A DNA stretch of 64,000 nt from Promicromonospora sp. AC04 (GTDB lineage Bacteria > Actinomycetota > Actinomycetes > Actinomycetales > Cellulomonadaceae): contig NZ_QBUG01000010.1 in assembly GCF_003058225.1 (NCBI RefSeq), forward strand, positions 186,001 through 250,000, written 5' to 3'. The position numbers were made by a program, and so were the translations under genes. How positions within the stretch are numbered: the first letter of the stretch is position 1; each line of letters starts with the position of its first letter. Below are positions 1,436 to 53,927 of the stretch, in pieces. Below the pieces are notes generated by a model. That model was not told where the DNA came from, did no database searches, and saw only the letters and a program-made list of their open reading frames with translations.

Positions 1436-3808
1436 ATGCCCGCCTCCCCCGGAACCCTGGTCGACTCGCACTGTCCCTACTGCGCGCTGCAGTGCGGGAT
1501 GTCGCTGACGCCCGGTCCCACGACAGGACCGCGCGAGGGCGCAGCTGTGCCGAGCACGCCAGAGGTGCAGCCCCGCGACTTCCCCACCAACCGGGGCGGG
1601 CTGTGCCAGAAGGGGTGGACGTCCGCAGCGGTGCTCGGGGCGTCCGACCGGATAGTCACCCCGCTGGTCCGGGGCGACTCCGGGGAGCTCGAGCCGACGA
1701 GCTGGGACGCGGCCCTCGACCTGGTCGCGTCCCGGCTCGGCGCCCTCGCCGCGGAGCACGGGCCGGAGGCGGTCGCGGTATTCGGCGGCGGCGGGCTGAC
1801 CAACGAGAAGGCGTACGCGCTCGGCAAGTTCGCGCGCACCGTGCTGCGCACGCCGAACATCGACTACAACGGACGGTTCTGCATGGCGTCCGCGGCGGCC
1901 GGGATGAACCGGTCGTTCGGCGTCGACCGCGGCCTGCCCTTCCCGCTGGCCGACCTCGGCGGCGCCCAGGCCGTGCTGCTCCTCGGCTCGAACATCGCCG
2001 AGACCATGCCGCCGGCCGTGCAGCACCTCGCCGGGGCACGGGCGGCGGGCGGGCTCGTCGTCGTCGACCCGCGGCGGTCCGCGACGGCCCGGCTCGCCGA
2101 GGACCCGGGCTCGGGGCAGCCCGCCGAGGGCGTGCACCTCGCCCCCGTGCCCGGCACGGACCTCGCGGTCCTGCTCGGGCTGCTGCACGTGGTGCTCGCG
2201 GAAGGGCTCGCCGACAGGGTGTACCTCGAGGAGCGCACCGCCGGGTTCGACGACGTCGCCCGGTCGGTCGCCGCCTGGTGGCCGGAGCGGGTCGAGTCCG
2301 TCTCGGGCGTGCCCGCCGCCGACCTGCGGCGCGTGGCCCGGCTGCTGGCCGCCGCCGCTCCCGTGCACGGCGGCGCCGGCGCGTACGTGCTGACCGGCCG
2401 CGGCGTCGAGCAGTCCACGCAGGGCACCGCCACCGTGACCGCGTCGATCAACCTGGCGCTCGCGCTCGGCCTGCCGGGCCGGGTCGGGTCGGGGTACGGC
2501 GCGATCACCGGACAGGGCAACGGGCAGGGCGGCCGCGAGCACGGGCAGAAGGCCGACCAGCTCCCGGGCTACCGCAAGATCGACGACCCGGCGGCGCGTG
2601 CGCACGTCGCCGCCGTGTGGGGCGTCGCCCCCGAGACGCTGCCGGGCCCGGGGCTGCCCGCGGTGCAGCTCCTCAGGTCGCTCGGCGCCCCCACCGGGCC
2701 GCGAGCCCTGCTGGTGCACGGCTCCAACCTCGTGGTCAGTGCGCCCAACGCGAGCACGGTGATCGACCGGTTGAAAAGCCTCGACCTCCTGGTGGTCTGC
2801 GACTTCGTCCCGAGCGAGACGGCGCTCCTGGCCGACGTCGTGCTCCCCGTGACCCAGTGGGCCGAGGAGGAGGGCACGATGACGTCGCTCGAGGGGCGCG
2901 TCATCCGCCGTCGGGCCGCCGTCGCGGCGCCGGGCGAGGCGCGCTCCGAGCTGTGGATCCTCGCCGAGCTGGCGCGCCGCCTCGGCGCGCCCGAGTCGCT
3001 CGCCTTCCCGACCGACCCCGCAGTGGTGTTCGACGAGCTCGCCCGCGCCTCCGCGGGCGGCCCCGCCGACTACTCCGGGCTGTCCCACGCCCGGCTCGAC
3101 GCCGACGAGGCGTCCGGGGGTCCGGGCCTGTTCTGGCCGGTCCCGGCCGCCTCCGCGGACGTGTCGGCCCCTGCCGACGGGGCAGACCCCGCCGATGTGT
3201 CAGACCCACAGGTCACCCCAGTGACCTCAGCGTCTGACATGCTCGCGCACCCCGGCACGCCGCGGCTGTTCCTCGACCGCTTCGCGACCCCGGACGGGCG
3301 GGCGCGCATGGTCGCCGTCGACCACGTGGGGCCGAGCGACGAGGTGCGGCCCGGCGCCCCGTTCTACCTGGTCACGGGACGGGTGCTGCAGCACTACCAG
3401 TCGGGCGCGCAGACGCACCGTGTCGCGGAGCTGGAGCGCCTCGTGTCCGAGCCCTACGTCGAGCTGCACCCGGTGCTCGGCTACCGCATCGGGGTGCCCG
3501 ACGGCGCCCGCGTGCGCCTCACCAGCTCCCGCGGCCGGGTCGAGGCGACGGCCCGCTGGACCGACGCCGTCCGCCCCGACACCGTCTTCATGCCGTTCCA
3601 CTGGAGCGGCATCGGGTCGGTCAACCAGGTGACGACCGACGCCACCGACCCGATCTCCGGGATGCCGGAGTTCAAGGTGTGCGCGGTGGACGTCTCGGTG
3701 GTCCCGCTCGATGCCGATTCGGTCTCGGCCGAGGACGAGCCTGTTTCCGCGCGGGTCGGGCCTGTCGAGACCCACCCGCGTCCCGCACAGAAGGAGCTCT
3801 CGACATGA
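1436..3808 (+). CDS. nasA: Assimilatory nitrate reductase catalytic subunit (molybdopterin oxidoreductase)
   Basis: This cytoplasmic Mo-bis-MGD enzyme reduces nitrate to nitrite. The 790-residue protein begins with a [4Fe-4S] cysteine set (C13, C16, C20, C57; CPYCALQC then GGLCQKGW), followed by the molybdopterin domains and a C-terminal dinucleotide-binding domain from about residue 640 (VTGRVLQHYQSG). The ATG at 1436 is chosen because it directly precedes the cluster motif; the same frame is open far upstream inside narK, but that is overlap only. Residues 588-602 are encoded by a 44-bp palindromic element and sit in an Ala/Asp-rich linker between domains. The last 30 residues are low complexity and carry a second repeat-like patch. 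The stop overlaps the next start (ATGA). Confidence 0.93.
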   Translation: MPASPGTLVDSHCPYCALQCGMSLTPGPTTGPREGAAVPSTPEVQPRDFPTNRGGLCQKGWTSAAVLGASDRIVTPLVRGDSGELEPTSWDAALDLVASRLGALAAEHGPEAVAVFGGGGLTNEKAYALGKFARTVLRTPNIDYNGRFCMASAAAGMNRSFGVDRGLPFPLADLGGAQAVLLLGSNIAETMPPAVQHLAGARAAGGLVVVDPRRSATARLAEDPGSGQPAEGVHLAPVPGTDLAVLLGLLHVVLAEGLADRVYLEERTAGFDDVARSVAAWWPERVESVSGVPAADLRRVARLLAAAAPVHGGAGAYVLTGRGVEQSTQGTATVTASINLALALGLPGRVGSGYGAITGQGNGQGGREHGQKADQLPGYRKIDDPAARAHVAAVWGVAPETLPGPGLPAVQLLRSLGAPTGPRALLVHGSNLVVSAPNASTVIDRLKSLDLLVVCDFVPSETALLADVVLPVTQWAEEEGTMTSLEGRVIRRRAAVAAPGEARSELWILAELARRLGAPESLAFPTDPAVVFDELARASAGGPADYSGLSHARLDADEASGGPGLFWPVPAASADVSAPADGADPADVSDPQVTPVTSASDMLAHPGTPRLFLDRFATPDGRARMVAVDHVGPSDEVRPGAPFYLVTGRVLQHYQSGAQTHRVAELERLVSEPYVELHPVLGYRIGVPDGARVRLTSSRGRVEATARWTDAVRPDTVFMPFHWSGIGSVNQVTTDATDPISGMPEFKVCAVDVSVVPLDADSVSAEDEPVSARVGPVETHPRPAQKELST
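3197..3240 (+). repeat. 44-bp in-frame palindromic element, copy 1 (inside nasA)
   Basis: The layout is GTGTCAGAC-N5-GGTCAC-N4-GTGACC-N5-GTCTGACAT, an inverted repeat with a central 6-bp stem, a 4-nt loop and an outer 8-bp stem. It is read as V-S-D-P-Q-V-T-P-V-T-S-A-S-D in the nasA frame. Copies with the same length and spacing lie in nirD (9658) and cobA (10605), and between genes at 25798, 46094, 53276 and, imperfectly, 53883. Confidence 0.9.
3754..3772 (+). repeat. Repeat-like patch GGTCGGGCCTGTCGAGACC in the nasA C-terminus
   Basis: This 19-nt quasi-palindromic patch lies in the low-complexity end of nasA and resembles the GGTCGAG...CGTCGAG units found in the next gene at 4761-4798. Similar sequences, from memory, are dispersed in Micrococcales genomes; that link is unverified. 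Confidence 0.4.
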
Positions 3809-5457
3809 ACCTACGTGTTCCCGTGAAGGTAGTGGTGGTGGGCTTCGGGATGGTCGGCTCGCGGCTCGTCGACGAGCTGCTGCGCCGCGAGCCCGAGGCG
3901 TTCGACATCACCGTGCTCGGCAGCGAGCCGTACGAGCCGTACAACCGGGTCCTGCTCAGCGACGTGGTGGCCGGCCGCACCGACGTCGCCGCCATCACGA
4001 TGCCCCTGCCCGACGGCGCCCGCGTCAACGTGCGCCGGGGCGTCGCCGCGGCGTCGATCGACCGGGCGTCGCGGGTGGTGATCGCCGACGACGGCAGCTC
4101 GCACCCGTACGACCACGTGGTCCTCGCGACCGGCGCGGCGGCCCGCATCCCGCCGATCCCCGGCCTGCGCACGCCCGACGGCGGCCTGCCGGCCGGCGTG
4201 CACGCGCTGCGCTCCCTCGACGACGCCCGCGAGATCGTGGCCGCCACCGTGAACTCCCCGCGCGCCGTGGTGGTGGGCGGGGGCGTCCTGGGGCTGGAGG
4301 CCGCCGTCGGGCTCGCGGGCCGCGGCCTGAACGTGACGCTGATCCACAACGTGCAGTCCCTCATGGAGCGCCAGCTCGACCCCGATGCCGCCGACGTCGT
4401 CCGGGCCGGCCTGGAGGGACAGGGCGTCACCGTGCGGCCGAACAGCCTGTCCAGCGAGGTCCTCGTGGCGGGCGGCCGCGCCGTGGGCATCCGCGTCCGG
4501 GACAACGCGGGCGAGGCCCGCGACGAGGTGGTCGCCGCCCGCCTGATCGTCTTCTCCGTCGGCACCATCCCGGAGACCGGGCTCGCCGCGGCGGCGGGAC
4601 TGGCGACGGACCGCGGCATCGTCGTCGGGTACGACCTCGCGAGCCCCGACGATCCCCGCGTGTACGCGATCGGCGACTGCGCGCAGCCGCCGAACGGCTC
4701 GCGCGGGCTGGTCGCTGAAGGCTGGGACCAGGCGCGACGCCTGGCAGAACACCTGGTCTCGCTGGTCGAGCCCGTCGCCTTGCTGGTCGAGGTCGTCGAG
4801 GCCAAGTCCGTCGCGGCCGGGCCTGCCGACGTCCATCTGCGCCTGCCGCAGGACGGCGCCCAGCCCAGCATGGCCGTGCGCCTGGGCGCCCTGCTGACGA
4901 GCGGCGCCACGAGTCGCGCGCAGTCGGACCGGGGGATCGACACGCGAGGCACCGACGTCGTGAAGGTCAAGGGCGGGGCGCTCAGCGTCACCACGATGGG
5001 GGTCTGCGGGCCGTCGCGCCCGGACGGCGTGGCGCAGCGTGCGGTCCGCCTGGCCGATCCCAGGGCTGGCCGGTACATCGAGGTGGTGGTCTCCGACGGC
5101 ATCCTCGTCGGGGCGACGTGTGTGGGTGACCCGCGAGTTGCCGCCGACCTCACCGCCGCCTACACCCGGCGCACGCCCGTCCCGCTGGACCCCGCGTTCC
5201 TGCTGCTTACGCCGGTGATGCCGGCGGCGGCTCCGGCGTCGTCCCCCGAGCACATGCCGGAGGACGCGGTCGTGTGCCGCTGCAACGGTGTGACCAAGGG
5301 CGACATCGCGGGTTCGTGCGCGGCGGGTACGCACTCGGTCGACGAGGTGGTGCGCGAGACCCGGGCGACGACGGGCTGCGGCTCGTGCAAGGACGCGGTG
5401 TGCGGGCTCGTGGACTGGCTCAAGGAGAGCGCGGAGGCGGTCCCGGAGCCGGCGTGA
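3805..5457 (+). CDS. nasB: FAD-dependent oxidoreductase with C-terminal BFD-like [2Fe-2S] domain (nitrate reductase electron-transfer subunit)
   Basis: This protein probably passes electrons from NAD(P)H to NasA. It has 550 residues when started at the ATG that overlaps the nasA stop. A Rossmann FAD motif (VVVGFGMVGSR) lies at about residue 10, and a second one for NAD(P)H (VVVGGGVLGLEAA) at about 153. The C-terminus has a BFD-type cluster site (VCRCNGVTKGD ... TGCGSCKDAV, about 490-535). The arrangement matches the N-terminal half of NirB, but there is no siroheme domain. Residues of about 315-335 (LVSLVEPVALLVEVVEA) are encoded by a short tandem repeat and look like an insertion between the FAD domain and the following region. 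The symbol follows Bacillus-type usage; some would call it nasC. Confidence 0.85.
   Translation: MNLRVPVKVVVVGFGMVGSRLVDELLRREPEAFDITVLGSEPYEPYNRVLLSDVVAGRTDVAAITMPLPDGARVNVRRGVAAASIDRASRVVIADDGSSHPYDHVVLATGAAARIPPIPGLRTPDGGLPAGVHALRSLDDAREIVAATVNSPRAVVVGGGVLGLEAAVGLAGRGLNVTLIHNVQSLMERQLDPDAADVVRAGLEGQGVTVRPNSLSSEVLVAGGRAVGIRVRDNAGEARDEVVAARLIVFSVGTIPETGLAAAAGLATDRGIVVGYDLASPDDPRVYAIGDCAQPPNGSRGLVAEGWDQARRLAEHLVSLVEPVALLVEVVEAKSVAAGPADVHLRLPQDGAQPSMAVRLGALLTSGATSRAQSDRGIDTRGTDVVKVKGGALSVTTMGVCGPSRPDGVAQRAVRLADPRAGRYIEVVVSDGILVGATCVGDPRVAADLTAAYTRRTPVPLDPAFLLLTPVMPAAAPASSPEHMPEDAVVCRCNGVTKGDIAGSCAAGTHSVDEVVRETRATTGCGSCKDAVCGLVDWLKESAEAVPEPA
4761..4798 (+). repeat. Short tandem repeat inside nasB
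   Basis: Two 17-nt units, GCTGGTCGAGCCCGTCG (4761-4777) and GCTGGTCGAGGTCGTCG (4782-4798), are separated by 4 nt and preserve the nasB frame. The encoded Leu/Val/Glu stretch is at a domain boundary. Confidence 0.6.
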
Positions 5458-5493
5458 GCGGGTCGGGGAGTGCGACGTGCGCGGCTGAACCTT

Positions 5494-5523
5494 CATGACA
5501 GTGTCATCAATGACACCGTCATG
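5494..5523. promoter_or_regulatory. Tandem TGACA-type operator-like palindromes
   Basis: The 30-nt stretch is an inverted repeat of CATGAC-A-GTGTCAT and ATGACAC-C-GTCATG with a 2-nt centre and a single mismatch. It contains one perfect 13-bp palindrome (ATGACA-G-TGTCAT) and one imperfect one. It lies in the 222-nt gap between nasB and the small kinase, which otherwise shows no convincing gene. The shape is that of a dimeric repressor site, for example TetR-like; the protein is unknown. It could alternatively form a hairpin ending the nas transcript. Confidence 0.5.
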
Positions 5524-5679
5524 GATGACGGCAAGTTGGAGTGCGAATGCCTCCAGGGCCGGTGTCGACGAGCGAGTCCGTGCGTCAGGAGCCGTGATGC
5601 TCGGCCCGGACGAACTGCTCGCCCAATGGTCGTAGCCGGGCGGCGCGGCACCCATCACCACGGTCGCTATCCTCGGCCC

Positions 5680-6153
5680 ATGACGAGTCGCCTGGTGCTC
5701 ATGTGCGGCCCCGCGGGGTCGGGGAAGTCGACCTTCGCTCGCCGGCTCGAGGACGCAGGCCATGTTCTGCTGTCCATCGACGAGCTCGCATGGGCGTCCG
5801 GCATCACGCAGGACCATCCGCTGCCCGACGGCGTTGCGGCCCGTCTCGACGCGGACCTCCGCGCACAGCTCGAGCAGCTGCTGCGAGATGGGCGTGACGT
5901 CGTCGTCGACAACTCCTTCTGGTCCCGCGCGGCGCGCGACGAGTACCGGGCGATCGGCGCAGCGCACGGGGTGATCGCCGAGACCGTCTTCGTGCGCGTG
6001 CCGCGCGAGGTCGCGCTCGCCCGGGTCGCGGCGCGCGGGGGAACAGGGCCTGGCGACGTCCGGCTTACGCCTGAAGTAGCGGCCGCCTACTACGACGGTC
6101 TTGAGACTCCGACGCCGGACGAGGGTCCGCTGCGGATCGTCGACGGAGCCTGA
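5680..6153 (+). CDS. Small P-loop ATP-binding protein / kinase-like (AAA_33 type)
   Basis: The 157-residue protein starts with a Walker A motif (GPAGSGKST, residues 10-18), followed by a zeta-toxin or polynucleotide-kinase-like pattern: SIDE at about 32 and VVVDNSFWSRAARDEYR at about 72, a typical lid/acceptor region. It probably phosphorylates a small molecule or nucleic-acid end; the substrate cannot be told. The ATG at 5680 begins the domain directly, and upstream in-frame codons encode non-conserved sequence. It ends 13 nt before the convergent methyltransferase. Its link to nitrate assimilation is only positional. Confidence 0.8.
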   Translation: MTSRLVLMCGPAGSGKSTFARRLEDAGHVLLSIDELAWASGITQDHPLPDGVAARLDADLRAQLEQLLRDGRDVVVDNSFWSRAARDEYRAIGAAHGVIAETVFVRVPREVALARVAARGGTGPGDVRLTPEVAAAYYDGLETPTPDEGPLRIVDGA

Positions 6154-6166
6154 CCGCTCGCATCCG

Positions 6167-6844
6167 TCAGGCCGGGTGCGTCCACTCCAGCGTGTAGCGG
6201 AAGAACAGCCGACGCCGGAGCCGCGCGCCCGGCAGCACGTCGCGCGCGATCCGGGAGATCTCCGCGAACGTCTCGGCGGGGTCGCGCACCGGCATCGCGG
6301 GGCCGACGTCGTCCACAGGCACCGTGACGGGCTGTGGATGCTTGATCATCCCGACCAGCGGGTTGAGCACCGACGACGGGATGTCCCAGGCGAGGTCGGC
6401 CAGGCTGTTGGCCCGGGCCAGGCCGACGACAAGCAGCCGGCCGCCGGGCTCGAGCAGCTCGGAGGCGTGCCGCAGCGCGGACCCGAGCGGCAGGTGATGC
6501 AGCACCGCGATCATGGTGATCGCGTCGAACGTGCCGTCGACCTCCTCGAACCGGGCGTGGTGCACGGTGACCGCCGGGTCGTCGGCGAACCGCTCCTTCG
6601 AGACGGCGGCCATGGCGGCGTCGGCGTCCACACCCAGCACCTCGTCGAAGCTTCCGCGCTGCCGGTCCAGCAGAGCCCCGGCGCCGCAGCCGACGTCGAG
6701 CGCCCGCCGCCGTCGGGCGGGGAGCCGCCGCAGGATCCAGCCGTGGAAGTGGTCGTTGTGGCTCCACGGGTGCCGCTGGTTGATCCGGTGGAGCCAGGAT
6801 CCGGCCGCGCGGACCAGCGGACTGGGCACGGTCCGGATGTCCAT
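6167..6844 (-). CDS. Class I SAM-dependent methyltransferase
   Basis: The 225-residue cytoplasmic protein has motif I (ALDVGCGAGALLD, about residues 48-60), an acidic motif II (VLGVDADAAM) and a motif IV/post region (FDAITMIAVLHHLPL). This is the Methyltransf_11/25 layout used for small-molecule substrates. The C-terminus (PGARLRRRLFFRYTLEW) is also seen in actinobacterial UbiE-like proteins. The ATG at 6844 gives a normal length. It is divergent from nirB across a 177-nt region with a strong palindrome. Its substrate is unknown. Confidence 0.85.
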   Translation of the reverse strand: MDIRTVPSPLVRAAGSWLHRINQRHPWSHNDHFHGWILRRLPARRRRALDVGCGAGALLDRQRGSFDEVLGVDADAAMAAVSKERFADDPAVTVHHARFEEVDGTFDAITMIAVLHHLPLGSALRHASELLEPGGRLLVVGLARANSLADLAWDIPSSVLNPLVGMIKHPQPVTVPVDDVGPAMPVRDPAETFAEISRIARDVLPGARLRRRLFFRYTLEWTHPA

Positions 6845-6886
6845 GCGGCCACCGTAGCGGCGCGAAACCTGGAGTAAGCCGTCTCG

Positions 6887-6917
6887 TTAATCCAAGTTTC
6901 GCCGAAACTTGGATTAA
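6887..6917. promoter_or_regulatory. Perfect 14-bp inverted repeat between divergent promoters (candidate nirB operator)
   Basis: TTAATCCAAGTTTC and its exact reverse complement are separated by GCC. A third half-site, GAAACCTGGAGTAA, 12 of 14 identical to the right arm, lies at 6864-6877. The position between two divergent starts, the AT-rich content in a GC-rich genome and the repeated half-site favour a regulator-binding site over a terminator. Nitrogen or nitrite control of nirBD is inferred. Confidence 0.65.
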
Positions 6918-7021
6918 GGACGCCGCACTCACCGGCCCGCGACCAGCCCTGTGAGGAAGATGTTCGGCCCGGGTAACCACCGGCGCACCAGCGCGAAAAA
7001 CCAGCGACATACGGTCAAGAC

Positions 7022-9646
7022 ATGGTCAACTCCGGCGATTCTCAGCACCTTGTCGTGATCGGCGGCGGCATGGTCGCGCAGCGGCTCGTCGAGGCGCTGC
7101 GCGCCCGGGACGACGCCGGCCGCTACCACGTCACCGTCTTCGCGGAAGAGCCCCGCGCGCCCTACGACCGCGTGGGCCTGACCCGCTGGTTCGCGGAGGG
7201 TCCCGAGGGCATTGCCCTGGGCGACGCGTCCCTGTGGGCCGACCCGCACGTCACTCTGCACACCGACCGCAAGATCGAGTCGATCGACCGCGAGGCGAAG
7301 ACCGTCACGGACCGCCTCGGCAACGTGCACCCGTACGACGAGCTGGTGCTCGCCACCGGCTCCAGCGCCGCGATGCCGCCCATCCCGGGCAACGACCTGC
7401 CGGGCGTCTTCGTCTACCGCACCATCGACGACGTCGCGGCGCTGCGCGGCTGGGTCGAGGAGAAGCGCAGGAGCTACCCGGCGGGCAAGCCGGTGCGCGG
7501 CGCCGTGATCGGCGGCGGCCTGCTCGGCCTGGAGGCCGCGGGCGCGCTCACCGCGCTCGACGCACAGGCCACCGTCATCGAGTTCGGCACGCACCTCATG
7601 GGCGTGCAGGTCGACCTCGGCGGCGGCCAGGCGCTGAAGCGCCTCATCAACGGCAAGGGCATCGGCGTCCGCGCCGAGACCGCGACCAGCCAGATGCGGC
7701 CGCACAAGCGCACCGGCCACGTGGGCCGGCTGGACTTCGCCGACGGCGGGCGGCTCGACGTCGACGTCGTCGTGGTGGCCACCGGCGTGCGTCCCCGCGA
7801 CGAGCTCGCCCGTGCGGCCGGACTGCCGATCGGGGAGCGCGGCGGCGCCGTCGTCGACCTGTCGTGCCGTACCGAGGACCCGAACATCTGGGCCGTGGGC
7901 GAGGTGGCCTGCATCGAGGGCCGCTGCATCGGCCTGGTCGCACCGGGCAACACGATGGCCGAGGTGGTCGTGGACCGCCTGCTGGGCGGCCTCGCGGAGT
8001 TCCCCGGAGCGGACACCGCGACCAAGCTCAAGCTCTCCGGGGTCGACGTCGCGTCGTTCGGCGACGCGCACGCCCGCACCGAGGACGCCGTCGAGGTCGT
8101 CTGGGCCGACCCGGTGGCCGGCGTCTACAAGAAGCTCGTCCTGTCCGACGACGCCCGCACCCTGCTCGGCGGCGTGTTCGTGGGCGACGCCGGACCCTAC
8201 GCGAGCCTGCGTCCGATGCTCGGCGCCGAGCTGCCGGGCGACGACCCGAGCGCCTTCCTGCTCCCCGAGGGCGGCGGTGGCGCCCCGAACCTGGAGCTGC
8301 CCGACGACGCCAACGTCTGCTCCTGCAACAGTGTCTCGGCCGGGACGATCCGCGGTGCCGTCACCGAGCACGAGTGCACCGACGTCCCGGGAGTGAAGGC
8401 CTGCACCCGCGCCGGCACCACCTGCGGTGCCTGCCTGCCGCTGGTGAAGAAGCTCGTCGACACCGAGCTGGAGCGGGCCGGCATCGAGGTCAGCACCGCC
8501 CTGTGCGAGCACTTCGACATGTCCCGCGCCCAGCTGTTCGACGCCGTCCGGGTCGCCGACCTGCACTCGTTCAGCGACATCGTGGGCAGGTTCGGGCGGG
8601 AGACCGTGGCCGCCGACGGCGGCGGCGTCGCGAAGGGCCGCGGCTGCGACATCTGCAAGCCGGTGGTGGCCTCGATCCTGGCGTCGCTGGGCAACGGGCA
8701 CATCCTGGCCGGCGAGCAGTCCACGCTGCAGGACACCAACGACCACATGCTCGCCAACCTGCAGAAGGACGGCACCTACTCGGTGGTGCCCCGGATGCCC
8801 GGCGGTGAGGTCACCCCGGAGCGGCTGATCGTCGTCGGGCAGGTCGCCAAGGACTTCGGGCTGTACACGAAGATCACGGGCGGCCAGCGGATCGACATGT
8901 TCGGGGCCCGCGTGGAGCAGCTGCCGGAGATCTGGCGCCGGCTGGTCGACGCGGGATTCGAGTCCGGGCACGCGTACGGCAAGTCGCTGCGCACCGTGAA
9001 GTCGTGCGTCGGGTCCACGTGGTGCCGGTACGGCGTGCAGGATTCGGTGGGCATGGCCGTCGAGCTGGAGCTGCGCTACCGCGGCCTGCGCTCGCCCCAC
9101 AAGCTCAAGATGGGTGTGTCCGGCTGCGCCCGCGAGTGCGCCGAGGCGCGCGGCAAGGACGTGGGCGTCATCGCCACGGACAAGGGCTGGAACATCTACG
9201 TGGGCGGCAACGGCGGTCAGACGCCGCGGCACGCGAAGCTGCTCGCCGAGGACCTGACGTCCGAGGAGCTCCTGCGCACCATCGACCGGTTCCTCATGTA
9301 CTACGTCCGCACGGCCGACCGGCTGCAGCGCACCGCGCCGTGGATCGAGGAGGTCGACGGCGGCCTGGACGGCGTGCGCGAGGTGATCATGGAGGACTCG
9401 CTCGGCATCTGCGCCGACCTGGACGCCGCCATGGCCCGCCACGTCGAGAACTACGAGGACGAGTGGAAGGCCGTGCTGGAGGACCCGGAGAAGCTGCGCC
9501 GGTTCTCGTCGTTCGTCAACGCCCCGAAGGACGCCGACCCGTCGCTCGCCTACGTCGAGGAGCGCGGCCAGCGCCGTCCTGCGACGACGGAGGAGCGCGC
9601 GTCCGGCGTCGTCATCGCGGGCCCGAAGCTGGAGGTGCGAGCATGA
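7022..9646 (+). CDS. nirB: Nitrite reductase (NADH) large subunit
   Basis: This enzyme carries out six-electron reduction of nitrite to ammonium in the cytoplasm. The 874-residue length is normal for NirB. In order: FAD motif (VIGGGMVAQRLVE, about 10), NAD motif (VIGGGLLGLEAAG, about 160), a BFD-type [2Fe-2S] site (VCSCNSVSAGTI ... GTTCGACLP, about 430-470), then the nitrite/sulfite reductase domain with siroheme-[4Fe-4S] cysteines CVGSTWC (about 660) and CARECAE (about 700). The ATG at 7022 follows the operator-like region. The stop overlaps the nirD start (ATGA), so the two subunits are translationally coupled. Confidence 0.97.
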   Translation: MVNSGDSQHLVVIGGGMVAQRLVEALRARDDAGRYHVTVFAEEPRAPYDRVGLTRWFAEGPEGIALGDASLWADPHVTLHTDRKIESIDREAKTVTDRLGNVHPYDELVLATGSSAAMPPIPGNDLPGVFVYRTIDDVAALRGWVEEKRRSYPAGKPVRGAVIGGGLLGLEAAGALTALDAQATVIEFGTHLMGVQVDLGGGQALKRLINGKGIGVRAETATSQMRPHKRTGHVGRLDFADGGRLDVDVVVVATGVRPRDELARAAGLPIGERGGAVVDLSCRTEDPNIWAVGEVACIEGRCIGLVAPGNTMAEVVVDRLLGGLAEFPGADTATKLKLSGVDVASFGDAHARTEDAVEVVWADPVAGVYKKLVLSDDARTLLGGVFVGDAGPYASLRPMLGAELPGDDPSAFLLPEGGGGAPNLELPDDANVCSCNSVSAGTIRGAVTEHECTDVPGVKACTRAGTTCGACLPLVKKLVDTELERAGIEVSTALCEHFDMSRAQLFDAVRVADLHSFSDIVGRFGRETVAADGGGVAKGRGCDICKPVVASILASLGNGHILAGEQSTLQDTNDHMLANLQKDGTYSVVPRMPGGEVTPERLIVVGQVAKDFGLYTKITGGQRIDMFGARVEQLPEIWRRLVDAGFESGHAYGKSLRTVKSCVGSTWCRYGVQDSVGMAVELELRYRGLRSPHKLKMGVSGCARECAEARGKDVGVIATDKGWNIYVGGNGGQTPRHAKLLAEDLTSEELLRTIDRFLMYYVRTADRLQRTAPWIEEVDGGLDGVREVIMEDSLGICADLDAAMARHVENYEDEWKAVLEDPEKLRRFSSFVNAPKDADPSLAYVEERGQRRPATTEERASGVVIAGPKLEVRA

Positions 9647-10083
9647 CGGTCAACGACGTGTCAGAAGCACAGGTCATCGAAGTGACCACTGCGTCCGACA
9701 ACTCGGAGGTGGGCCGCTGGGAGCGCGCCTGCCTGCTCACGGACCTGTTCCCCGAGCGCGGCGCCGCGGCGCTCTTCGGGGACGTCCAGGTGGCCCTCTT
9801 CCGGCTTCCCGACGATCCCGCCTACGCCGCTCACGGCGGGCAGGTGTACGCCGTCCAGAACCTCGACCCGTTCTCCGCGGCGAACGTCATGTCGCGGGGG
9901 ATCGTCGGCACGCGCGGCGGCGAGCCCACGGTTGCCGCGCCGGTCTACAAGCAGGTGTTCTCCCTGGTCACGGGCAAGTGCCTGGCTACAGCGGACAAGG
10001 CCCCCAAGGACGACCTGCCACCGGACCTGACCACCTACCCGGTGAAGATCCGCGACGGCGTGATCCACGTAAACCTCCCATGA
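9643..10083 (+). CDS. nirD: Nitrite reductase small subunit, Rieske-like
   Basis: This is the partner of NirB. The 146-residue protein has the NirD fold (WERACLLTDLFPERGAAA, YAVQNLDPFSAANVMSRGI, SPVYKQ-like AAPVYKQVFSLVTGKC). As in most NirD proteins, the Rieske cysteine/histidine ligands are missing, so it probably binds no cluster. The ATG at 9643 overlaps the nirB stop. Residues 6-20 (V-S-E-A-Q-V-I-E-V-T-T-A-S-D-N) are encoded by a 44-bp palindromic element, giving an N-terminal extension longer than expected for the family. The stop overlaps the cobA start. Confidence 0.93.
   Translation: MTVNDVSEAQVIEVTTASDNSEVGRWERACLLTDLFPERGAAALFGDVQVALFRLPDDPAYAAHGGQVYAVQNLDPFSAANVMSRGIVGTRGGEPTVAAPVYKQVFSLVTGKCLATADKAPKDDLPPDLTTYPVKIRDGVIHVNLP
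9658..9701 (+). repeat. 44-bp in-frame palindromic element, copy 2 (inside nirD)
   Basis: GTGTCAGAA-N5-GGTCAT-N4-GTGACC-N5-GTCCGACAA. It has the same length and spacing as the nasA copy and the same codon phase, read V-S-E-A-Q-V-I-E-V-T-T-A-S-D. It is more diverged than the other coding copies, with mismatches in both stems. Confidence 0.85.
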
Positions 10084-10970
10084 CCTCCGAACCTGTTGAG
10101 TGCGGGATCCTCGCTCCGTCCGGGGGCTCGGAGGGGGCGAAGATCCAGCACTCAACGAACGGACGGGTGACGCTCGTCGGGGGTGGGCCCGGGGCCGTTG
10201 ATCTGCTGACCGTGCGGGGTTGGCGGGCGCTGCAGGCCGCCGACGTCGTTGTTGCCGACCGGCTGGGTCCCGTCGAGATCCTCGCCGAGCTCCCGCCGCA
10301 CGTCCGCGTGGTCGACGTCGGCAAGGAGCCCGGCCGTCACCCCGTCCCACAGGAGCGGATCAACGAGCTGCTCGTGGAGCACGCGCGGGCCGGCGCGAAC
10401 GTGGTGCGGCTCAAGGGCGGCGACCCGTTCGTGCTCGGCCGGGGCGGCGAGGAGGTCGTCGCGTGCGTGGCGGCAGGCGTGCCGGTCGAGGTAGTGCCGG
10501 GCGTGACGTCCGCCGTCGCCGTGCCCGGGCTGGCCGGTATCCCGCTCACCCACCGCGGGGTCACCACGGGCTTCCACGTGGTCTCGGGCCACTGCGCCCC
10601 GGAGGTGTCAGACCCCCAGGTCAACGGGATCACCAGTACGTCTGACACATCGGGGCCGCTTGATTCCGCTGCCCTCTCCTGCGTGCGGGATGCCACGGCT
10701 ACCCTTGTAGTACTGATGGGGGTGCGGTCCCTCGGCGCGATCGTGGCGCAGTCCCTGGCCGCAGGTGCCGATCCCGGAACTCCCGTGGCGATCGTGGAGA
10801 ACGGTTCCACGCCGGAGCAGCGCGTCACGCGGGCTCGTCTCGAAGAGGCGGCCGATGTGGCAGCGGCCCGTGGTGTGCAGTCGCCCGCGGTCGTCGTCAT
10901 CGGCCGCGTGGCAGCTGTTGGGCTTCTGGAGGGTACAAGTGAACGACGTCTGGCAGGTGCCGGTGTCTGA
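10080..10970 (+). CDS. cobA: Uroporphyrinogen-III C-methyltransferase (SUMT)
   Basis: The enzyme makes precorrin-2 from uroporphyrinogen III with two SAM, the first step towards siroheme for NirB. The 296-residue protein shows the SUMT motifs VTLVGGGPGAVDLLTVRGW (about 30), VRLKGGDPFVLGRGGEE (about 110), VPGVTSA and PLTHRG (about 145-160). The ATG overlaps the nirD stop. The first 27 residues are poorly conserved. Residues 176-190, in the loop after VVSGH, are encoded by the third in-frame palindromic element. No precorrin-2 dehydrogenase/ferrochelatase domain is present, so siroheme synthesis must be completed by a gene elsewhere. Confidence 0.93.
   Translation: MTSEPVECGILAPSGGSEGAKIQHSTNGRVTLVGGGPGAVDLLTVRGWRALQAADVVVADRLGPVEILAELPPHVRVVDVGKEPGRHPVPQERINELLVEHARAGANVVRLKGGDPFVLGRGGEEVVACVAAGVPVEVVPGVTSAVAVPGLAGIPLTHRGVTTGFHVVSGHCAPEVSDPQVNGITSTSDTSGPLDSAALSCVRDATATLVVLMGVRSLGAIVAQSLAAGADPGTPVAIVENGSTPEQRVTRARLEEAADVAAARGVQSPAVVVIGRVAAVGLLEGTSERRLAGAGV
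10605..10648 (+). repeat. 44-bp in-frame palindromic element, copy 3 (inside cobA)
   Basis: GTGTCAGAC-N5-GGTCAA-N4-ATCACC-N5-GTCTGACAC. The outer 9-bp arms are perfect and the inner stem is partly degenerate. It is read V-S-D-P-Q-V-N-G-I-T-S-T-S-D, the same phase as in nasA and nirD, and lies in a surface loop of the SUMT fold. Confidence 0.9.
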
Positions 10971-12195: not shown

Positions 12196-12240
12196 GTTGT
12201 GTTGCTGTGAGTGGACTTCGTCTACTGTCAGCAACACAAC
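12196..12240. promoter_or_regulatory. 12-bp inverted repeat upstream of the small CxxC protein gene
   Basis: GTTGTGTTGCTG and CAGCAACACAAC are perfect reverse complements separated by 21 nt. They lie 42 nt before the likely start at 12283. The 45-nt structure could be an operator or an RNA hairpin in the leader. Confidence 0.55.
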
Positions 12241-14097: not shown

Positions 14098-15918
14098 ATG
14101 GGGCACTGGGAGGCGGAGCTCACCGAGCTCGTGATGCGGCGCAGCGGTGCGCTGGTCGGCTATGCGTACTCGCTGACGCGGGACAAGTCGCAGGCCGAGG
14201 ACCTGGTGCAGGACGCGCTGGTCAAGGTCTACTCCCGCCTGCGCCGTCCGCCGTCGGCCGGGTCGTCGCAGTTCGACCTGGACAGGCAGGAGGCCGCCAA
14301 CGCCGAGGGGTACGTTCGCCGGGCGATCCTGACGATCTACCTGGACGGGTACCGGCGGCGGAACCACTGGTCCGGTCTCAAGCATCTCCTGGCCGACGAG
14401 GACCGCTCGCCCGGGGCGGACCGGGTGGCCACCGCCCGCGTCGACGTGGGCGTCGCGCTGAAGCGGCTTGCGCCCCGGCAGCGGGAGGCCGTGGTGCTGC
14501 GGTTCTTCGAGGACATGACCGTGCCGCAGATCGCGGCGGCCCTCGGGACGAGCCAGGGCACGATCAAACGGCACCTGTTCGACGCGAGCGTTGTGCTGCG
14601 CCAGGCCCTCGCAGAGGCCTCGGCGCCCGCCATGGACACGGACCTGGACGAGCGGATGGACACGATGGCGGGCGCGGTGCGCCGCCGTCGTGCGGTGAAG
14701 GTCGGCGCCGTGGCAGGCGTGTCGATGGTCCTGGCAGTGGCGCTCGCGTGGGGCGCGTTCGCGGTCAAGCCGTGGATCCGGTCGGAGCCGCTGCCGGCGG
14801 ACGACAAGGTGGAGTACACGGCGGGGTACGTGCCCGCGAGCTGGGACCCTGCCATCGGGTTGTACTGCGGAATGCCGGTCGAGGAGCTCGACGCCATGGA
14901 CGCCGGGACCTATGACGTGGAGATCACCGGGGATCTCGCGCCGGTTGCCGAGGGAACTGACGCCTTCTGGCAGCTCCCGGTCGCGATCTCCGGGACAGTG
15001 CCGGACGACGTGCCCGATGACGAGCGGTCCTACTTCATGACCTCGCCGGTGATCGTCTGGGCGTACGAGGGGCGGGTGGTCGACCTGGGCTCCGGGTGGC
15101 GTGAAAACAGCCCGGACGTCTCGGTGGCGTTGTCCGACGACGGTGCCTGGAGCGGGACGGCAACCGCGGGGAGCTCGACGTCGTGCTGGGAGGAGACGCT
15201 CATACCCGACAGCTTCGGCCAGTACGACAACGAGCGGCCCGGAGCGCGCTACGAGCTGCGCGCGGTCATGGCCGACGGCTCTGTGGCCGGGCGGGCCGAT
15301 GGGAGGGAGGACCTCCTGGTCAGCGCTCCGATCACGGTCGACCTCGACAGCGGTGTGGCCCCGCTGCCGACCTTCGCCGCGCCGTCGGACGACTGCAGCG
15401 GGGCCGCGTACCGGGGCCGGCCCCTGCGGGCGCAGGACCTGCCGGACGACGTACGGGCCGCGGCCGCGGAGCTCCTGGAGGCAGTGACCACCTGCGACGA
15501 GGGCAGGATCGCCGATCTCGGCGCGTGGTTGGACACGGCGCCCAGCTCGGAGCCGAAGACCCGCACGGTCAACGATGTCTTCGCGCTCCCCGAGACCGGC
15601 GGCCGAACGCCGTACGCGACGGTCGCCCGGCTCCTGACCGAGACCGGACCGGTCACCGGGCGGTCGGAGACGTGGTGGACCTGGCCGCGGGTATCTAAGT
15701 GGGTCAACGATGACGCCTCCTGGCAGGAGGCGATAGACGCCGGCGCTGTCACTGAGGAACAGGCCGTGGCGGACCGCGCGGCCGGCCGGTACACGGGGTG
15801 GCAGCTGAAGATCGAGGACCGGCCCGACTCTCCTCGGAAGATCTGGAGCGCCTTCCACGAGGGCGACGACAGCTGGTGCTCCCGTCCGACCGCCCAGGCC
15901 GATCCAGAATGCACCTGA
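14098..15918 (+). CDS. Membrane-tethered SigE-family ECF sigma factor, fused copy 1
   Basis: A single 606-residue chain. Sigma2 spans about residues 15-90 (ALVGYAYSLTRDKSQAEDLVQDALVK is split by the DLVQDAL core) and sigma4 about 118-172 (LAPRQREAVVLRFFEDMT, helix-turn-helix with TSQGTIKRHLFDA). An Arg-rich linker (AVRRRRAVK) leads to one transmembrane helix at about 201-223, then some 380 extracytoplasmic residues. The outer part has one Cys-Gly domain (YCGMPVEEL) and a C-terminal domain (FALPETGGRTPYATVARLL ... WTWPRVSKW) that also ends two split-type partners (22348, 28141). No zinc anti-sigma motif is present. Release by proteolysis or action at the membrane is inferred. The ATG follows GAGAGGAG. 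Confidence 0.85.
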   Translation: MGHWEAELTELVMRRSGALVGYAYSLTRDKSQAEDLVQDALVKVYSRLRRPPSAGSSQFDLDRQEAANAEGYVRRAILTIYLDGYRRRNHWSGLKHLLADEDRSPGADRVATARVDVGVALKRLAPRQREAVVLRFFEDMTVPQIAAALGTSQGTIKRHLFDASVVLRQALAEASAPAMDTDLDERMDTMAGAVRRRRAVKVGAVAGVSMVLAVALAWGAFAVKPWIRSEPLPADDKVEYTAGYVPASWDPAIGLYCGMPVEELDAMDAGTYDVEITGDLAPVAEGTDAFWQLPVAISGTVPDDVPDDERSYFMTSPVIVWAYEGRVVDLGSGWRENSPDVSVALSDDGAWSGTATAGSSTSCWEETLIPDSFGQYDNERPGARYELRAVMADGSVAGRADGREDLLVSAPITVDLDSGVAPLPTFAAPSDDCSGAAYRGRPLRAQDLPDDVRAAAAELLEAVTTCDEGRIADLGAWLDTAPSSEPKTRTVNDVFALPETGGRTPYATVARLLTETGPVTGRSETWWTWPRVSKWVNDDASWQEAIDAGAVTEEQAVADRAAGRYTGWQLKIEDRPDSPRKIWSAFHEGDDSWCSRPTAQADPECT

Positions 15919-15968
15919 CCCGTGGCGCAGCCACCGCGGATCCGACACGCATTCTCGTCACCACCACT

Positions 15969-15996
15969 ATCGTTCTTCCCTCCCACCCGGCAGGGA
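15969..15996 (+). promoter_or_regulatory. Conserved upstream motif of the fused sigma genes, copy a
   Basis: ATCGTT followed by TTCCCT, CACCCGGC and AGGGA, 28 nt long and 29 nt before the start codon. Closely similar blocks lie at 17838 and 19881, each about 30 nt before a fused sigma gene, and at 19690 before a decayed copy. It may be a shared promoter or operator; TCCCT-N10-AGGGA is an inverted repeat. Confidence 0.55.
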
Positions 15997-16024
15997 CCAT
16001 GAGTGGGGAGAGGGGACATCTTCG

Positions 16025-17800
16025 ATGGCGCTGTGGGAGGCCGAGCTCACGGAGCTCGCGACAAGCCGTGGCGGGGCGCTGGTCGGGTACGCGTACTCGC
16101 TGACGCGGGACAAGTCGCAGGCCGAGGATCTGGTGCAGGACGCGCTGGTCAAGGTCTACTCCCGCCTGCGCCGCCCGCCGTCGGTGGGCGAGCAGTCCCA
16201 GCACGACCTGGACCGGCCGGAGCCGAACAACAACGCAGAGGGTTACGTCCGCCGCGCCATCCTGACGATCTACCTGGACGGGTATCGACGGCGGAACCAC
16301 TGGGCGGGCCTCAAGCACCTCCTCGCCGATGACGCCGACTCCCCCGGGGCGGACCGGGTAGCCACCGCCCGCGTCGACGTCGGTGTCGCGCTGAAGCAGC
16401 TCTCGCCCCGGCAGCGCGAGGCGGTGATGCTGCGGTTCTTCGACGACCTGACGGTGCCGCAGATCGCGGCCGCTCTGGGAACCAGTCAGGGGAACATCAA
16501 GCGGCACCTGTTCGACGCGACGGCCGTGCTGCGCCAGGCCCTGGCCGAGGTCTCGGTGCCCGCCATGGAGACCGACCTGGACGAGCGGCTGGACACGATG
16601 TCCGGTGCGGTGCGCCGCCGTCGGACCGCGAAGGTGGCCGCTGTCAGCGGCGCCTCCCTGGTGCTGGCGGGCCTGCTGGCGTTCGCTGTCTGGGGCCCCG
16701 GACGGCTCCTGTCGGAGCCGGTGCCGCCGGCCACCCCGAGCCCGGACGCAGCGGTCGGCGCCGCCTGGGCGCCCGAGGCCTGGCGCTCGCAAGGCCCGCA
16801 GTACCACTGCGGCATGGAGGTGACGGAGCTCGTGTCGTCCTCCGACACCGTGCGCCTGGAGCTCACGGGCGACGTCGGGCCGGCGGACACTCCGTCCGCG
16901 GACGGCGGGCTCGCCGCGCCCGTCCGGATCACCCGGACAGACGCCGAAGGCCCAGCGCTCGACGGCGGGCAGCCCAGGCTGGTCTTCGCGCGGGACGGCC
17001 AGGTGGTCGACCTCGGCCGAGGCTGGCACGAGAACGGTTACACCCTGCCCGGAGCCGGCCAGTCCGCCGACGACGTCGCTGATGCCACCGCCGCTACCGC
17101 GTGCGGGAGATGGACGACGTACGCCGGGGTCAGGGAGGACTGGGAACAGTACGTGGATCCGCGCCCGGCCGGTACCTACGACGTGTACGCGGTGATGCCG
17201 TGGGAAGACGACGCGGGCACGAGCCGCATCGCCGTCAGCGAGCCGGTCACCATGGAGGTCCCTGCGGTCGAGATGTCGGCGGCGGATCCGCTGACCGTCG
17301 ACATCCGCGACGGCTACCAGCCGCCGTGGCTCGAGGGCACGAGCCTCGCCTGCGGGGCCTACGCGTCCGACATCCCTGGTGGTCCGCAGCTGGCTTCGGA
17401 ACGGTCCGGTCTGAGGTTGTCGGCCGAGGCCACCGGCGAGTCCGGCGATCTCGCCGACAAGGTGACCGTCACGTTCACCGAGACCGAGGGGGAGGCGGTC
17501 GACGCGACCCGCACGCCGGTCACGCTGGTCTGGCTCAGCAACGGCAAAGTGGTGGCGGTCGGCAGCGACGTCTGGTCCGACCCCGCGGAGGACCTGCGGG
17601 TCGAAGCGAACGGCACGGCGTCCGTCGAACTGCCGATCGAGCCCGACCGGACCTGCCTCCAGGACCCGGACGCCGGGATGCCGAGGGGGAACCACGAGAA
17701 CTACGACGTGTATGCCCTCACGGAGCTCGACCCCGGCTCGGGCGGCGAGCGGCAGTTCGTCTCCGTGGGTGCATCGTCCACCTATGTCATCTGGGGGTGA
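16025..17800 (+). CDS. Membrane-tethered SigE-family ECF sigma factor, fused copy 2
   Basis: A 591-residue paralogue. Sigma2 and sigma4 occupy about residues 1-172 (DNA-contact turn TSQGNIKRHLFDA), linker VRRRRTAK at about 197 and one transmembrane helix at about 203-223. The outer region holds two related Cys-containing beta domains. The first runs from YHCGMEVTEL to AVSEPVTMEV; the second opens with RDGYQPPWLEGTSLACG and ends RTCLQDPDAG...YDVYALTEL. Paired cysteines in each suggest disulfides, consistent with export. It lacks the C-terminal LPE domain of copy 1. The start ATG lies after GGGGAGAGGGGA. Confidence 0.85.
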   Translation: MALWEAELTELATSRGGALVGYAYSLTRDKSQAEDLVQDALVKVYSRLRRPPSVGEQSQHDLDRPEPNNNAEGYVRRAILTIYLDGYRRRNHWAGLKHLLADDADSPGADRVATARVDVGVALKQLSPRQREAVMLRFFDDLTVPQIAAALGTSQGNIKRHLFDATAVLRQALAEVSVPAMETDLDERLDTMSGAVRRRRTAKVAAVSGASLVLAGLLAFAVWGPGRLLSEPVPPATPSPDAAVGAAWAPEAWRSQGPQYHCGMEVTELVSSSDTVRLELTGDVGPADTPSADGGLAAPVRITRTDAEGPALDGGQPRLVFARDGQVVDLGRGWHENGYTLPGAGQSADDVADATAATACGRWTTYAGVREDWEQYVDPRPAGTYDVYAVMPWEDDAGTSRIAVSEPVTMEVPAVEMSAADPLTVDIRDGYQPPWLEGTSLACGAYASDIPGGPQLASERSGLRLSAEATGESGDLADKVTVTFTETEGEAVDATRTPVTLVWLSNGKVVAVGSDVWSDPAEDLRVEANGTASVELPIEPDRTCLQDPDAGMPRGNHENYDVYALTELDPGSGGERQFVSVGASSTYVIWG

Positions 17801-17837
17801 CCCGGAGCGGGCGGCGAACATTCCTGCCGTCCGCTGC

Positions 17838-17866
17838 ATCGTTTTCGCGTTCCCGCCCGTCAGGGA
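17838..17866 (+). promoter_or_regulatory. Conserved upstream motif of the fused sigma genes, copy b
   Basis: ATCGTTTTCGCGTTCCCGCC followed by CGTCAGGGA, aligned base for base with the blocks at 15969 and 19881. It ends 30 nt before the GTG start at 17897. Confidence 0.5.
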
Positions 17867-17896
17867 GCGATGAAACAGGGAGAAGGGACGACTTCG

Positions 17897-19672: not shown

Positions 19673-19689
19673 ATTCCTCACTGCGGCAC

Positions 19690-19800
19690 ATCGTTTTCCC
19701 TTCCCCATCCGTCATCGAGCAGGCCGGTCCGCGGACGGCGTCGCCGAGTCGGACGGTGAGCGGCAGTTCATCTCCGCGAGCACGTTGCACGTTGTACGAG
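19690..19800 (+). pseudogene. Decayed remnant of another fused sigma gene
   Basis: The remnant starts with a degenerate copy of the upstream motif (ATCGTTTTCCCTTCC, 19690 on). It is followed at about 19720-19755 by sequence resembling the paralogues' 'GCCGGCCAGTCCGCGGACG' segment, and at about 19757-19785 by sequence resembling their 3' end (GAGCGGCAGTTC). The order promoter, middle, 3' end with large parts missing suggests an internally deleted paralogue. No open frame is left. Confidence 0.55.
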
Positions 19801-19880
19801 TACGGCGTCGAAAACTGACGATGACCACCGCGGCACGGACCGTTGGCCGCGGTCCCTGTGAATTTCTCGCTGGCAGCCTC

Positions 19881-19909
19881 ATCGTTCTTCCCTTCTCACC
19901 CGTCAGGGA
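19881..19909 (+). promoter_or_regulatory. Conserved upstream motif of the fused sigma genes, copy c
   Basis: ATCGTTCTTCCCTTCTCACC followed by CGTCAGGGA, 27 nt before the start at 19937. Of the copies it agrees best with both others. Confidence 0.55.
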
Positions 19910-19936
19910 GGATGACAGCGAGAGGGGAAGTCTTCG

Positions 19937-21697: not shown

Positions 21698-21772
21698 CCA
21701 ACGAAACCCTCACCCGGCGCGTCATGGTGGTTGTGGAGACGATGACAGCACATACGCACCGGGGAGGTGGCC

Positions 21773-22351
21773 ATGGCGGTATGGGAGAGCGAGCTCGATG
21801 AGCTCATGAGGACGCGCGGAAGCGCCCTCGTCCGCTATGCCTACATGCTCTCCGGCGATCGCGCGCTCGCCGAGGACCTGGTCCAGGACGCACTGGTCAA
21901 GGTCTACTCGCGGCTACGCGGCGTCCCGGGCCGGGGCAGATCGGTGGCCGTGGCCCAGGGCAGCCAGGCGCACGACCTCGAGTCCCCGTTCACGAACGCG
22001 GAGGGCTACGTGCGACGCGCCGTTCTCACCATCTACCTGGACGGCTACCGCAAGCGGCAGCGCTGGACCGGGGTCAAGCACCTCCTGGCCGACGACGACA
22101 GCACCCGCGGCGCCGACCAGGCGGCGTCGGCGCGCGTCGACGTGATGGCGGCGCTCGCCAAGCTCGGCGCGCGCGAACGGGCCTGCGTGGTCCTGCGCTA
22201 CTTCGAGGACATGACGGTGCCGCAGATCGCCGACGCGCTCGGCACCGCCCAGGGCACGGTCAAGCGCTACCTGTCCGACGCCACCGCGAACCTGCAGGAG
22301 ATCCTGCGCCCCGACGATTTCCGACCGGCCGAAGGGAGGGCCGCCCGATGA
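21773..22351 (+). CDS. SigE-family ECF sigma factor, split pair 1
   Basis: A 192-residue stand-alone sigma with sigma2 (ALVRYAYMLSGDRALAEDLV) and sigma4 (LGARERACVVLRYFEDMTV, helix-turn-helix TAQGTVKRYLSDA). It ends shortly after sigma4 at RPAEGRAAR, where the fused genes continue into the membrane helix. The ATG at 21773 has GGGGAGG upstream; a GTG two codons earlier is less well placed. Its stop overlaps the next start as ATGA, so the partner is translationally coupled. Confidence 0.9.
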   Translation: MAVWESELDELMRTRGSALVRYAYMLSGDRALAEDLVQDALVKVYSRLRGVPGRGRSVAVAQGSQAHDLESPFTNAEGYVRRAVLTIYLDGYRKRQRWTGVKHLLADDDSTRGADQAASARVDVMAALAKLGARERACVVLRYFEDMTVPQIADALGTAQGTVKRYLSDATANLQEILRPDDFRPAEGRAAR

Positions 22352-25797: not shown

Positions 25798-25841
25798 GGG
25801 TCGGGCGTCCAGGTCACTGGGGTGACCTGGACGCCCGACCC
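25798..25841. repeat. 44-bp palindromic element, intergenic copy (perfect), between convergent genes
   Basis: GGGTCGGGC-N5-GGTCAC-TGGG-GTGACC-N5-GCCCGACCC, with all 20 arm positions paired. It has the geometry of the nasA/nirD/cobA inserts. Read on the minus strand in the matching phase it gives G-V-Q-V-T-P-V-T-W-T-P-D, close to the coded V-S-D-P-Q-V-T-P-V-T-S-A-S-D. In place it probably acts as a bidirectional terminator. Confidence 0.85.
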
Positions 25842-46093: not shown

Positions 46094-46137
46094 GGGTCAG
46101 GCGTACAGGTCGCTCCGGTGATCTGTGCGCCTGACCC
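46094..46137. repeat. 44-bp palindromic element, intergenic copy after the LysR gene
   Basis: GGGTCAGGC-N5-GGTCGC-TCCG-GTGATC-N5-GCCTGACCC. It has the geometry of the coding copies, with GAC/GTC extending the outer arms to 46091-46140. In the matching phase it would read G-V-Q-V-A-P-V-I-C-A-P-D. It lies where a terminator is expected. Confidence 0.8.
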
Positions 46138-53275: not shown

Positions 53276-53319
53276 CGGGCAGGCGTGCGGGTCACCCGGG
53301 TGACCCGCACGCCTGACAC
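53276..53319. repeat. 44-bp palindromic element, intergenic copy after topA
   Basis: CGGGCAGGC-N5-GGTCAC-CCGG-GTGACC-N5-GCCTGACAC. The central 36 nt form a perfect palindrome (18-bp arms). It starts 3 nt after the topA stop. In the matching phase on the minus strand it reads V-S-G-V-R-V-T-R-V-T-R-T-P. It probably ends the topA transcript. Confidence 0.85.
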
Positions 53320-53882: not shown

Positions 53883-53927
53883 GTGTCTGACGTTCGGGTC
53901 ACCTGAGTGGACCCGTAGACCTGACAG
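53883..53927. repeat. Degenerate palindromic element upstream of tmk
   Basis: GTGTCTGAC-N5-GGTCAC-N4-GTGGACC-N5-ACCTGACAG. It has the geometry of the 44-bp family with one inserted base in the right inner arm and weaker outer pairing. It lies about 46 nt before tmk, where it might act as a regulator site or be a worn copy. Confidence 0.6.

Follow-up and report, generated by a model that had tools for sequence, protein, structure and literature searches.

How did one and the same kind of quasi-palindrome come to lie, in frame, inside three genes that encode unrelated proteins? The question is raised by a stretch of 64,000 nucleotides (nt) of the Promicromonospora sp. AC04 genome (contig NZ_QBUG01000010.1, positions 186,001 to 250,000; hereafter the window, whose first letter is position 1), in which nasA, nirD and cobA of the nitrate assimilation (nas) cluster each carry a 44-nt element. 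The original prediction, made from the letters of the window, compared these elements with the protein-coding palindromes of Rickettsia and suggested that they could be mobile or selfish. Analysis of this genome and its relatives led us to a reading that we regard as very likely: a genus-specific dispersed hairpin, similar to repetitive extragenic palindromes (REP) and Rickettsia palindromic elements (RPE), lives after genes, is sometimes captured in frame and then drifts.

A dispersed hairpin family in Promicromonospora

The three elements lie on the forward strand at 3197..3240 in nasA (VSDPQVTPVTSASD; 16/19 arm pairs), at 9658..9701 in nirD (VSEAQVIEVTTASD) and at 10605..10648 in cobA (VSDPQVNGITSTSD), and all begin at codon position 1 in one common frame, exactly as had been predicted. 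Their host genes, likewise on the forward strand, are nasA (1436..3808), which encodes a molybdopterin oxidoreductase and by its context an assimilatory nitrate reductase; nirD (9643..10083), for the Rieske-like small subunit of nitrite reductase; and cobA (10080..10970), for uroporphyrin-III C-methyltransferase. The description of the hosts as three nitrate assimilation genes is therefore right for nasA and nirD, whereas cobA stands beside nitrate reduction proper. Domain positions (Pfam) place the NasA element (residues 588-602) in the linker between Molybdopterin (72-514) and Molydop_binding (643-750), the NirD element (residues 6-20) ahead of Rieske_2 (25-143) and the CobA loop element within TP_methylase (28-256). 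In a structure model of CobA with a mean predicted local distance difference test score (pLDDT) of 75.9, residues 172-189 fall below a pLDDT of 50 and connect a strand (164-168) with a helix (195-203), which suggests that the insert is disordered or at the surface. The predicted linker, N-terminus and loop agree with these positions.

A 42-nt pattern with up to three mismatches matched these three places in the window (six strand matches) and nothing in 100 dinucleotide shuffles of it. Across the whole genome, the pattern gave 25 forward and 23 reverse matches, and its backwards control gave none on either strand. Copies picked by the pattern were aligned (26 in total) and used to build a covariance model. 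The arms of this alignment covary, with 47 cells changed on both sides versus 16.8 in shuffles and a covariation score of 0.284 versus 0.146; a measure of further pair types was weaker, being matched by 35 of 500 shuffles. The model found at least 148 strand matches in this genome, which merged to at least 76 places, and other searches, such as one for single arms, added at least three more. At E values of up to 0.1, it recovered 25 to at least 150 strand matches in each of 13 Promicromonospora genomes and 0 to 8 in each of 16 genomes of other genera. This family (family 1) is a dispersed, genus-specific repeat, frequent in 13/13 genomes of the genus and rare in the 16 others, and the copies in nasA, nirD and cobA are three degraded members of what is a larger and mostly intergenic family.

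Family-1 elements end in GTGTCAG..CTGACAC, and CGTC occurs inside the arm. In the relative G005, 20 copies were drawn from among the best-scoring matches, a choice that is biased against decayed in-gene copies. All are intergenic; 16 of them have 20/20 arm pairs and four have 19, and they differ chiefly in one three-base paired stretch. Their flanks add AC..GT, with A at -2 in all 20 copies, C at -1 in 17, G at +1 in 18 and T at +2 in 18, so that a fresh unit would measure about 48 bp. The predicted length of 44 bp thus applies to the three window copies, whereas the best copies of this relative extend further.

Gene positions from a simple, purpose-made gene caller put 68 of the 76 places between genes, three at gene edges and five inside genes. 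Among the intergenic copies, 61/68 follow a stop codon at a distance of no more than 50 nt (median, 16 nt), versus 23% of random intergenic placements, and 4/68 lie in divergent gaps, versus 47% for random placements. The element would hence be protein coding as far as its in-frame copies are concerned, but most copies sit between genes, just past stop codons. Going by its position, we read the family as having the habit of a 3'-end hairpin, with a predicted role in termination.

Four intergenic copies lie in the window itself: one with 20/20 arm pairs between convergent genes (25798..25841), one about 15 nt past a stop (46094..46137), one 2 to 3 nt past the stop of a topoisomerase gene (53276..53319) and a weak one of 26 bits (53884..53926). 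At the end of the topoisomerase gene, a family-1 match was present in 7/13 genomes of the genus (this genome, G003, G004, G005, G008, G011 and G012). G001 has a different palindrome directly past the stop, and none was visible there in G006 and G010; the hairpin at this one 3' site is turning over. Other inverted repeats follow the topoisomerase gene in two other Promicromonospora species (L289 near 2401 and L297 near 2407). Elsewhere, a locus-specific stem carries the family-1 copy C4:350254 at its tip, and the two together form an inverted repeat of about 72 nt (L102 2486-2557).

Reading frame, constraint and history of the in-gene copies

NasA, NirD and CobA were aligned from the 13 genus genomes and from three genomes of other genera. 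Within the genus, the element is present in 7 NasA, 9 NirD and 7 CobA (loop) sequences, and a fourth site, the CobA N terminus, is occupied by family 1 in G004, G005, G009 and G011. The N-terminal CobA copies are patchy among sister species; the G005 protein is 16 residues longer there than that of G006 if both start at the nirD overlap. NasA of G004, CobA of G001 and perhaps CobA of G012 carry apparent remnants; in NirD, the copies of G003 and G012 have undergone strong erosion. No family-1 insert was found in NasA, NirD or CobA of the three other-genus genomes, and the CobA loop insert was absent from 18/18 CobA sequences of other genera. The absence of the residues from orthologues elsewhere, on which the original prediction had staked itself, was thus borne out in these alignments, as was the wide recurrence of the pattern against an empty shuffle control. 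The earliest branches of a nirB tree are G011 and G007, two genomes that are without the elements of NasA, NirD and the CobA loop; this is consistent with a putative gain in the common ancestor of the eleven remaining genomes, followed by losses.

Beyond the nas cluster, internal copies of this genome also occur in the gene for an FAA-hydrolase-like protein and in that for an FGE-sulfatase-domain protein, the latter copy being variable among species of the genus as well; a third copy, weak and decayed, lies in an ABC transporter gene. A peptide-profile search for additional coding copies returned only known places at E <0.01, including five internal copies, all of them in open frames of at least 424 codons. 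The sequence VSDVWQVPVSD at the N terminus of HemD was considered as a decayed copy and dropped, since G014 has nearly the same residues and only three weak family matches genome-wide.

For the nas cluster, we compiled 26 elements scoring at least 24/36 against the consensus, a set that leaves out lower-scoring candidates and so remnants, and all 26 use one frame. A perfect element has TGA in two of its three frames, and the subtype GCT is closed in all three; in 43 of this genome's own 42-nt copies, the used frame contains a stop in 8 and the other frames in 29 and 22. Stops usually close the other frames, so that the common frame is largely forced and for the most part a sign of survival, and the shared frame that had been predicted is real without being an independent surprise.

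Arm pairing is weaker inside genes, at a mean of 13.7 of 19 pairs versus 16.5 for 38 other 42-nt copies (Mann-Whitney p 9e-6); the in-gene copies compared here come from several species, the intergenic ones from this genome only. The predicted RNA folds differ likewise, with minimum free energies (MFE) of -23.6, -17.4 and -14.6 kcal/mol for the in-gene elements versus -45.7, -40.9 and -35.6 kcal/mol for three intergenic window copies. In a crude count, the ratio of nonsynonymous to synonymous changes (pN/pS) was 0.67-0.93 for the elements versus 0.26-0.49 for whole genes, the latter figure including the element and some upstream codons. The inserted peptide is therefore only weakly constrained. 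Among 22 selected peptides, S2, Q5 and D14 hardly vary. Pairing of the flanks beyond the element was reached by 16 of 2,000 shuffles in G005 and by 331 of 2,000 in this genome; nesting in pre-existing stems was dropped as an explanation, being significant in G005 only and in neither this genome nor the in-gene set.

The position of the N-terminal copies may have a simple explanation in how the operon is built. The stop of nirB (7022..9646, forward strand; nitrite reductase large subunit) overlaps the start of nirD, and the ATG of cobA overlaps the nirD stop, in both cases by 4 nt, so that spots 3 to 11 nt past a stop are the start of the next gene; the NirD element begins 11 nt past the nirB stop. 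The 3'-end habit thus suggests why the N-terminal sites of NirD and CobA were hit, because a post-stop spot is here the N terminus of the following gene. The overlapping nirD start was found with and without the element, in genus genomes as well as in the three other genera, which argues for the upstream start without proving it and favors translation of the NirD insert. For the inserts at large, the frame evidence points to translation.

A second family and the repeats of Isoptericola luteus

At the CobA N terminus of this genome, the fourth site is occupied by an unrelated palindrome (family 2) of 62 nt, GTTGAGTGC..GCACTCAAC, which lies 11 nt past the nirD stop (10095..10156, forward strand). 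It is coding only if cobA starts at 10080, whereas the simple gene caller starts cobA downstream. Family 2 was found at this site in three genomes, with 17/19 outer pairs in this genome, 17/19 in G008 and 14/19 in G001. Its half-site (GTTGAGTGCTGGATCTTCGC..) gave 29 forward and 28 reverse matches in this genome versus 1 + 1 in the control, with 25 facing pairs among them genome-wide. Ten loci were examined and represent seven distinct places, all seven called intergenic and at most 29 nt past a stop.

Isoptericola luteus has repeats of its own, with at least 73 matches to TGTCAGG-N28-CCTGACA at up to one mismatch and none in the control. We examined 53 copies, 48 of them distinct after removal of duplicated contig stretches (L359=L347 and L366=L363); the distinct counts exclude a chance match with two mismatches (L374:215) and keep both L363 and L365, which are partly shared. 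Of the distinct copies, 13 lie in genes and 35 between genes. The hosts comprise histidine ammonia-lyase, a thioredoxin/NHL protein, a LUD-domain protein, a 2-oxoacid dehydrogenase acyltransferase, a P-type ATPase (two places), uroporphyrinogen decarboxylase and NasA, where one pair occupies the same linker as the Promicromonospora element. All 13 distinct in-gene copies use one frame, and this choice is not forced by stops alone, because nearly every copy leaves a second frame open. Tandem pairs are spaced 60 nt apart inside genes (6/6) and 61 nt apart between genes (17/17); not all pairs are independent, and counted by arrays (5 and 13) the association has a Fisher p of 1.2e-4, or 1.6e-4 when two arrays in a partly shared stretch are counted once. 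Pairing differed weakly between in-gene and intergenic copies (p 0.05).

A broader view, which we hold tentatively and would sooner doubt than adopt, is that the Promicromonosporaceae carry a standing class of hairpins, genus specific in sequence but with a common plan (a 42-nt core, TGTCAG..CTGACA ends and a variable paired middle), shaped by translatability. An agent other than RAYT would seed them into linkers of core metabolic enzymes, selection would shape their length and one benign hydrophilic frame, and in Isoptericola a coding form (60-nt unit) would have split from the extragenic form (61-nt unit). The spacings of 60 and 61 nt offer a natural test of reading-frame selection. Different repeat families in the same NasA linker, in two genera of free-living soil actinobacteria, make the process accessible to experiments in species that can be cultured and for which many genomes exist.

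Several further observations were made along the way. In I. luteus, one gene is followed by an array of five hairpins in tandem, spaced 61 nt apart (L360 1501-1786). Two more genera of the family have their own 42-nt TGTCAG..CTGACA palindromes in the nitrate cluster (L152 2887-2928 and L153 8972-9013), one 27 nt past a stop and the other inside a gene in the same frame. The window contains more long, near-perfect palindromes (6881-6923, 12197-12239, 27004-27045 and 36467-36512), some with a related copy elsewhere, and several hairpin families may share this genome. At gathering score, Rfam matched only a tRNA in the window, and the palindromes had no match. A row of like-sized genes (about 580-606 codons) at 14098-24090 looks paralogous from repeated partial matches.

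Origin of the copies and comparison with known repeats

How the copies arose can be pictured as follows. A hairpin of 44-48 bp, similar to REP or to miniature inverted-repeat transposable elements (MITE), would have its usual home just downstream of stop codons, and its transcript would form a strong hairpin that probably acts as a 3'-end structure or travels along with one. An occasional copy within an open reading frame would survive in the frame that is usually stop-free, with a length change divisible by three, and mostly at N termini, linkers or loops. Translation of such a copy would yield a hydrophilic spacer (VSDxQVTxVTxxSD); drifting under weak constraint, the copy would lose its palindrome and become shorter through in-frame deletions. 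We infer that copies reach new sites through some agent and that they function at 3' ends. Regarding the mobile or selfish nature that had been put forward as a possibility, distribution and polymorphism suggest it, but no transposase was identified. A single-arm search for an autonomous partner returned 86 arms, 79 of them within known places; the remaining seven comprise two that make up an additional intergenic palindrome, one that represents a decayed in-gene copy, a lone arm and three that are chance-like, and no parent transposon was recognized among them. A reading as DNA-uptake sequences was dropped, single arms being rare.

Several points weigh against capture of a mobile hairpin. PF01797 (Y1_Tnp, RAYT) was found in 0/13 genus genomes, with a control positive in 5/14, and neither a target-site duplication nor a clean empty/filled pair was established. 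The N-terminal copies of NirD and CobA would be extragenic if translation starts downstream, and N-terminal REPs may indeed be misannotated as coding, as PMC3733652 warns. The pairing comparison mixes species on one side, as stated above, and the nirB tree represents one gene, with a support of 88 for its key split and several losses needed. Finally, three of the six in-gene copies known from this genome fall in one 7.5-kb nas cluster, and random capture is no explanation for this concentration.

That concentration is what an account by regulatory sites, i.e., a nitrogen-regulator operator or intragenic attenuators for nitrate assimilation, would make sense of: one cluster holds three copies, an additional site at the CobA N terminus and a palindrome of family 2 as well, and many species keep copies there. 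We nevertheless consider it improbable, since the same family adjoins dozens of other genes, the cluster of some genus members and of the other genera examined is without copies, and the MFE values given above show weakened hairpins within genes. Selection of the inserted peptide itself, as an interaction tag or linker, is in our view more doubtful still. The near-invariant S2, Q5 and D14 and the single frame of I. luteus, kept although two are open, would suit it, but the conserved residues follow from conserved DNA arms, pN/pS is high, and the insert erodes and is absent in related species.

The strong 3' bias, the turnover of hairpin sequence after the topoisomerase gene and the flank pairing in G005 could also be expected of terminators that formed in place and were homogenized by gene conversion, with in-gene copies arising by recombination rather than transposition. 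We find this rather unlikely, given that G005 has perfect and identical copies next to different genes, that copies lie within coding regions at several sites in two genera and that flank pairing is not significant in this genome. Chance similarity or an assembly artefact is refuted by the empty shuffles and controls together with the presence of the family in 13 genus genomes, and we assign it practically no weight. Capture of a dispersed 3'-end hairpin thus remains our preferred reading.

Searches of one open-access library turned up no account of coding palindromes in actinobacteria, Promicromonospora and Isoptericola included, and the word "actinobacteria" occurs 0 times in PMC3733652 and PMC2229807. 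The following comparisons are limited to the available portions of these two papers. The best-known palindromic repeats that lie in frame are those of Rickettsia and Wolbachia; REPs inside genes are reported in several bacteria besides Rickettsia (PMC3733652). With bacterial MITEs that carry reading frames (Correia/NEMIS and ERIC; PMC2229807), family 1 shares a non-autonomous nature, inverted ends and in-frame fusion to genes, but it is shorter, and neither a target duplication nor a parent insertion sequence was identified for it. With REPs of the GTAG and CGTC superfamilies (PMC3733652), it shares short, dispersed hairpins in many copies, mainly extragenic and some intragenic. CGTC-type REPs, too, are without a dedicated transposase (PMC3733652). 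Family 1 differs from REPs in the absence of a PF01797 gene from the 13 Promicromonospora genomes, in its near-perfect, symmetrical palindromes and in ends of GTGTC/GACAC, with neither GTAG nor CGTC at the foot.

The likeness to the protein-coding palindromes of Rickettsia, which the original prediction had drawn, holds up, and it extends to those of Wolbachia (PMC2229807, PMC3733652); it is judged by description and not by sequence. Family 1 differs from them in belonging to another phylum and in having mostly extragenic copies right past stop codons. Its elements measure 44-48 bp versus 105-146 bp for RPE (PMC2229807), but size alone does not separate the two, because RPE-4 and RPE-6 have been equated with short CGTC repeats (PMC3733652). 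As in those systems, members of one palindromic family stand both in intergenic DNA and, in frame, within conserved proteins that are unrelated to each other, and at the nas-cluster sites the insert is missing from orthologues elsewhere.

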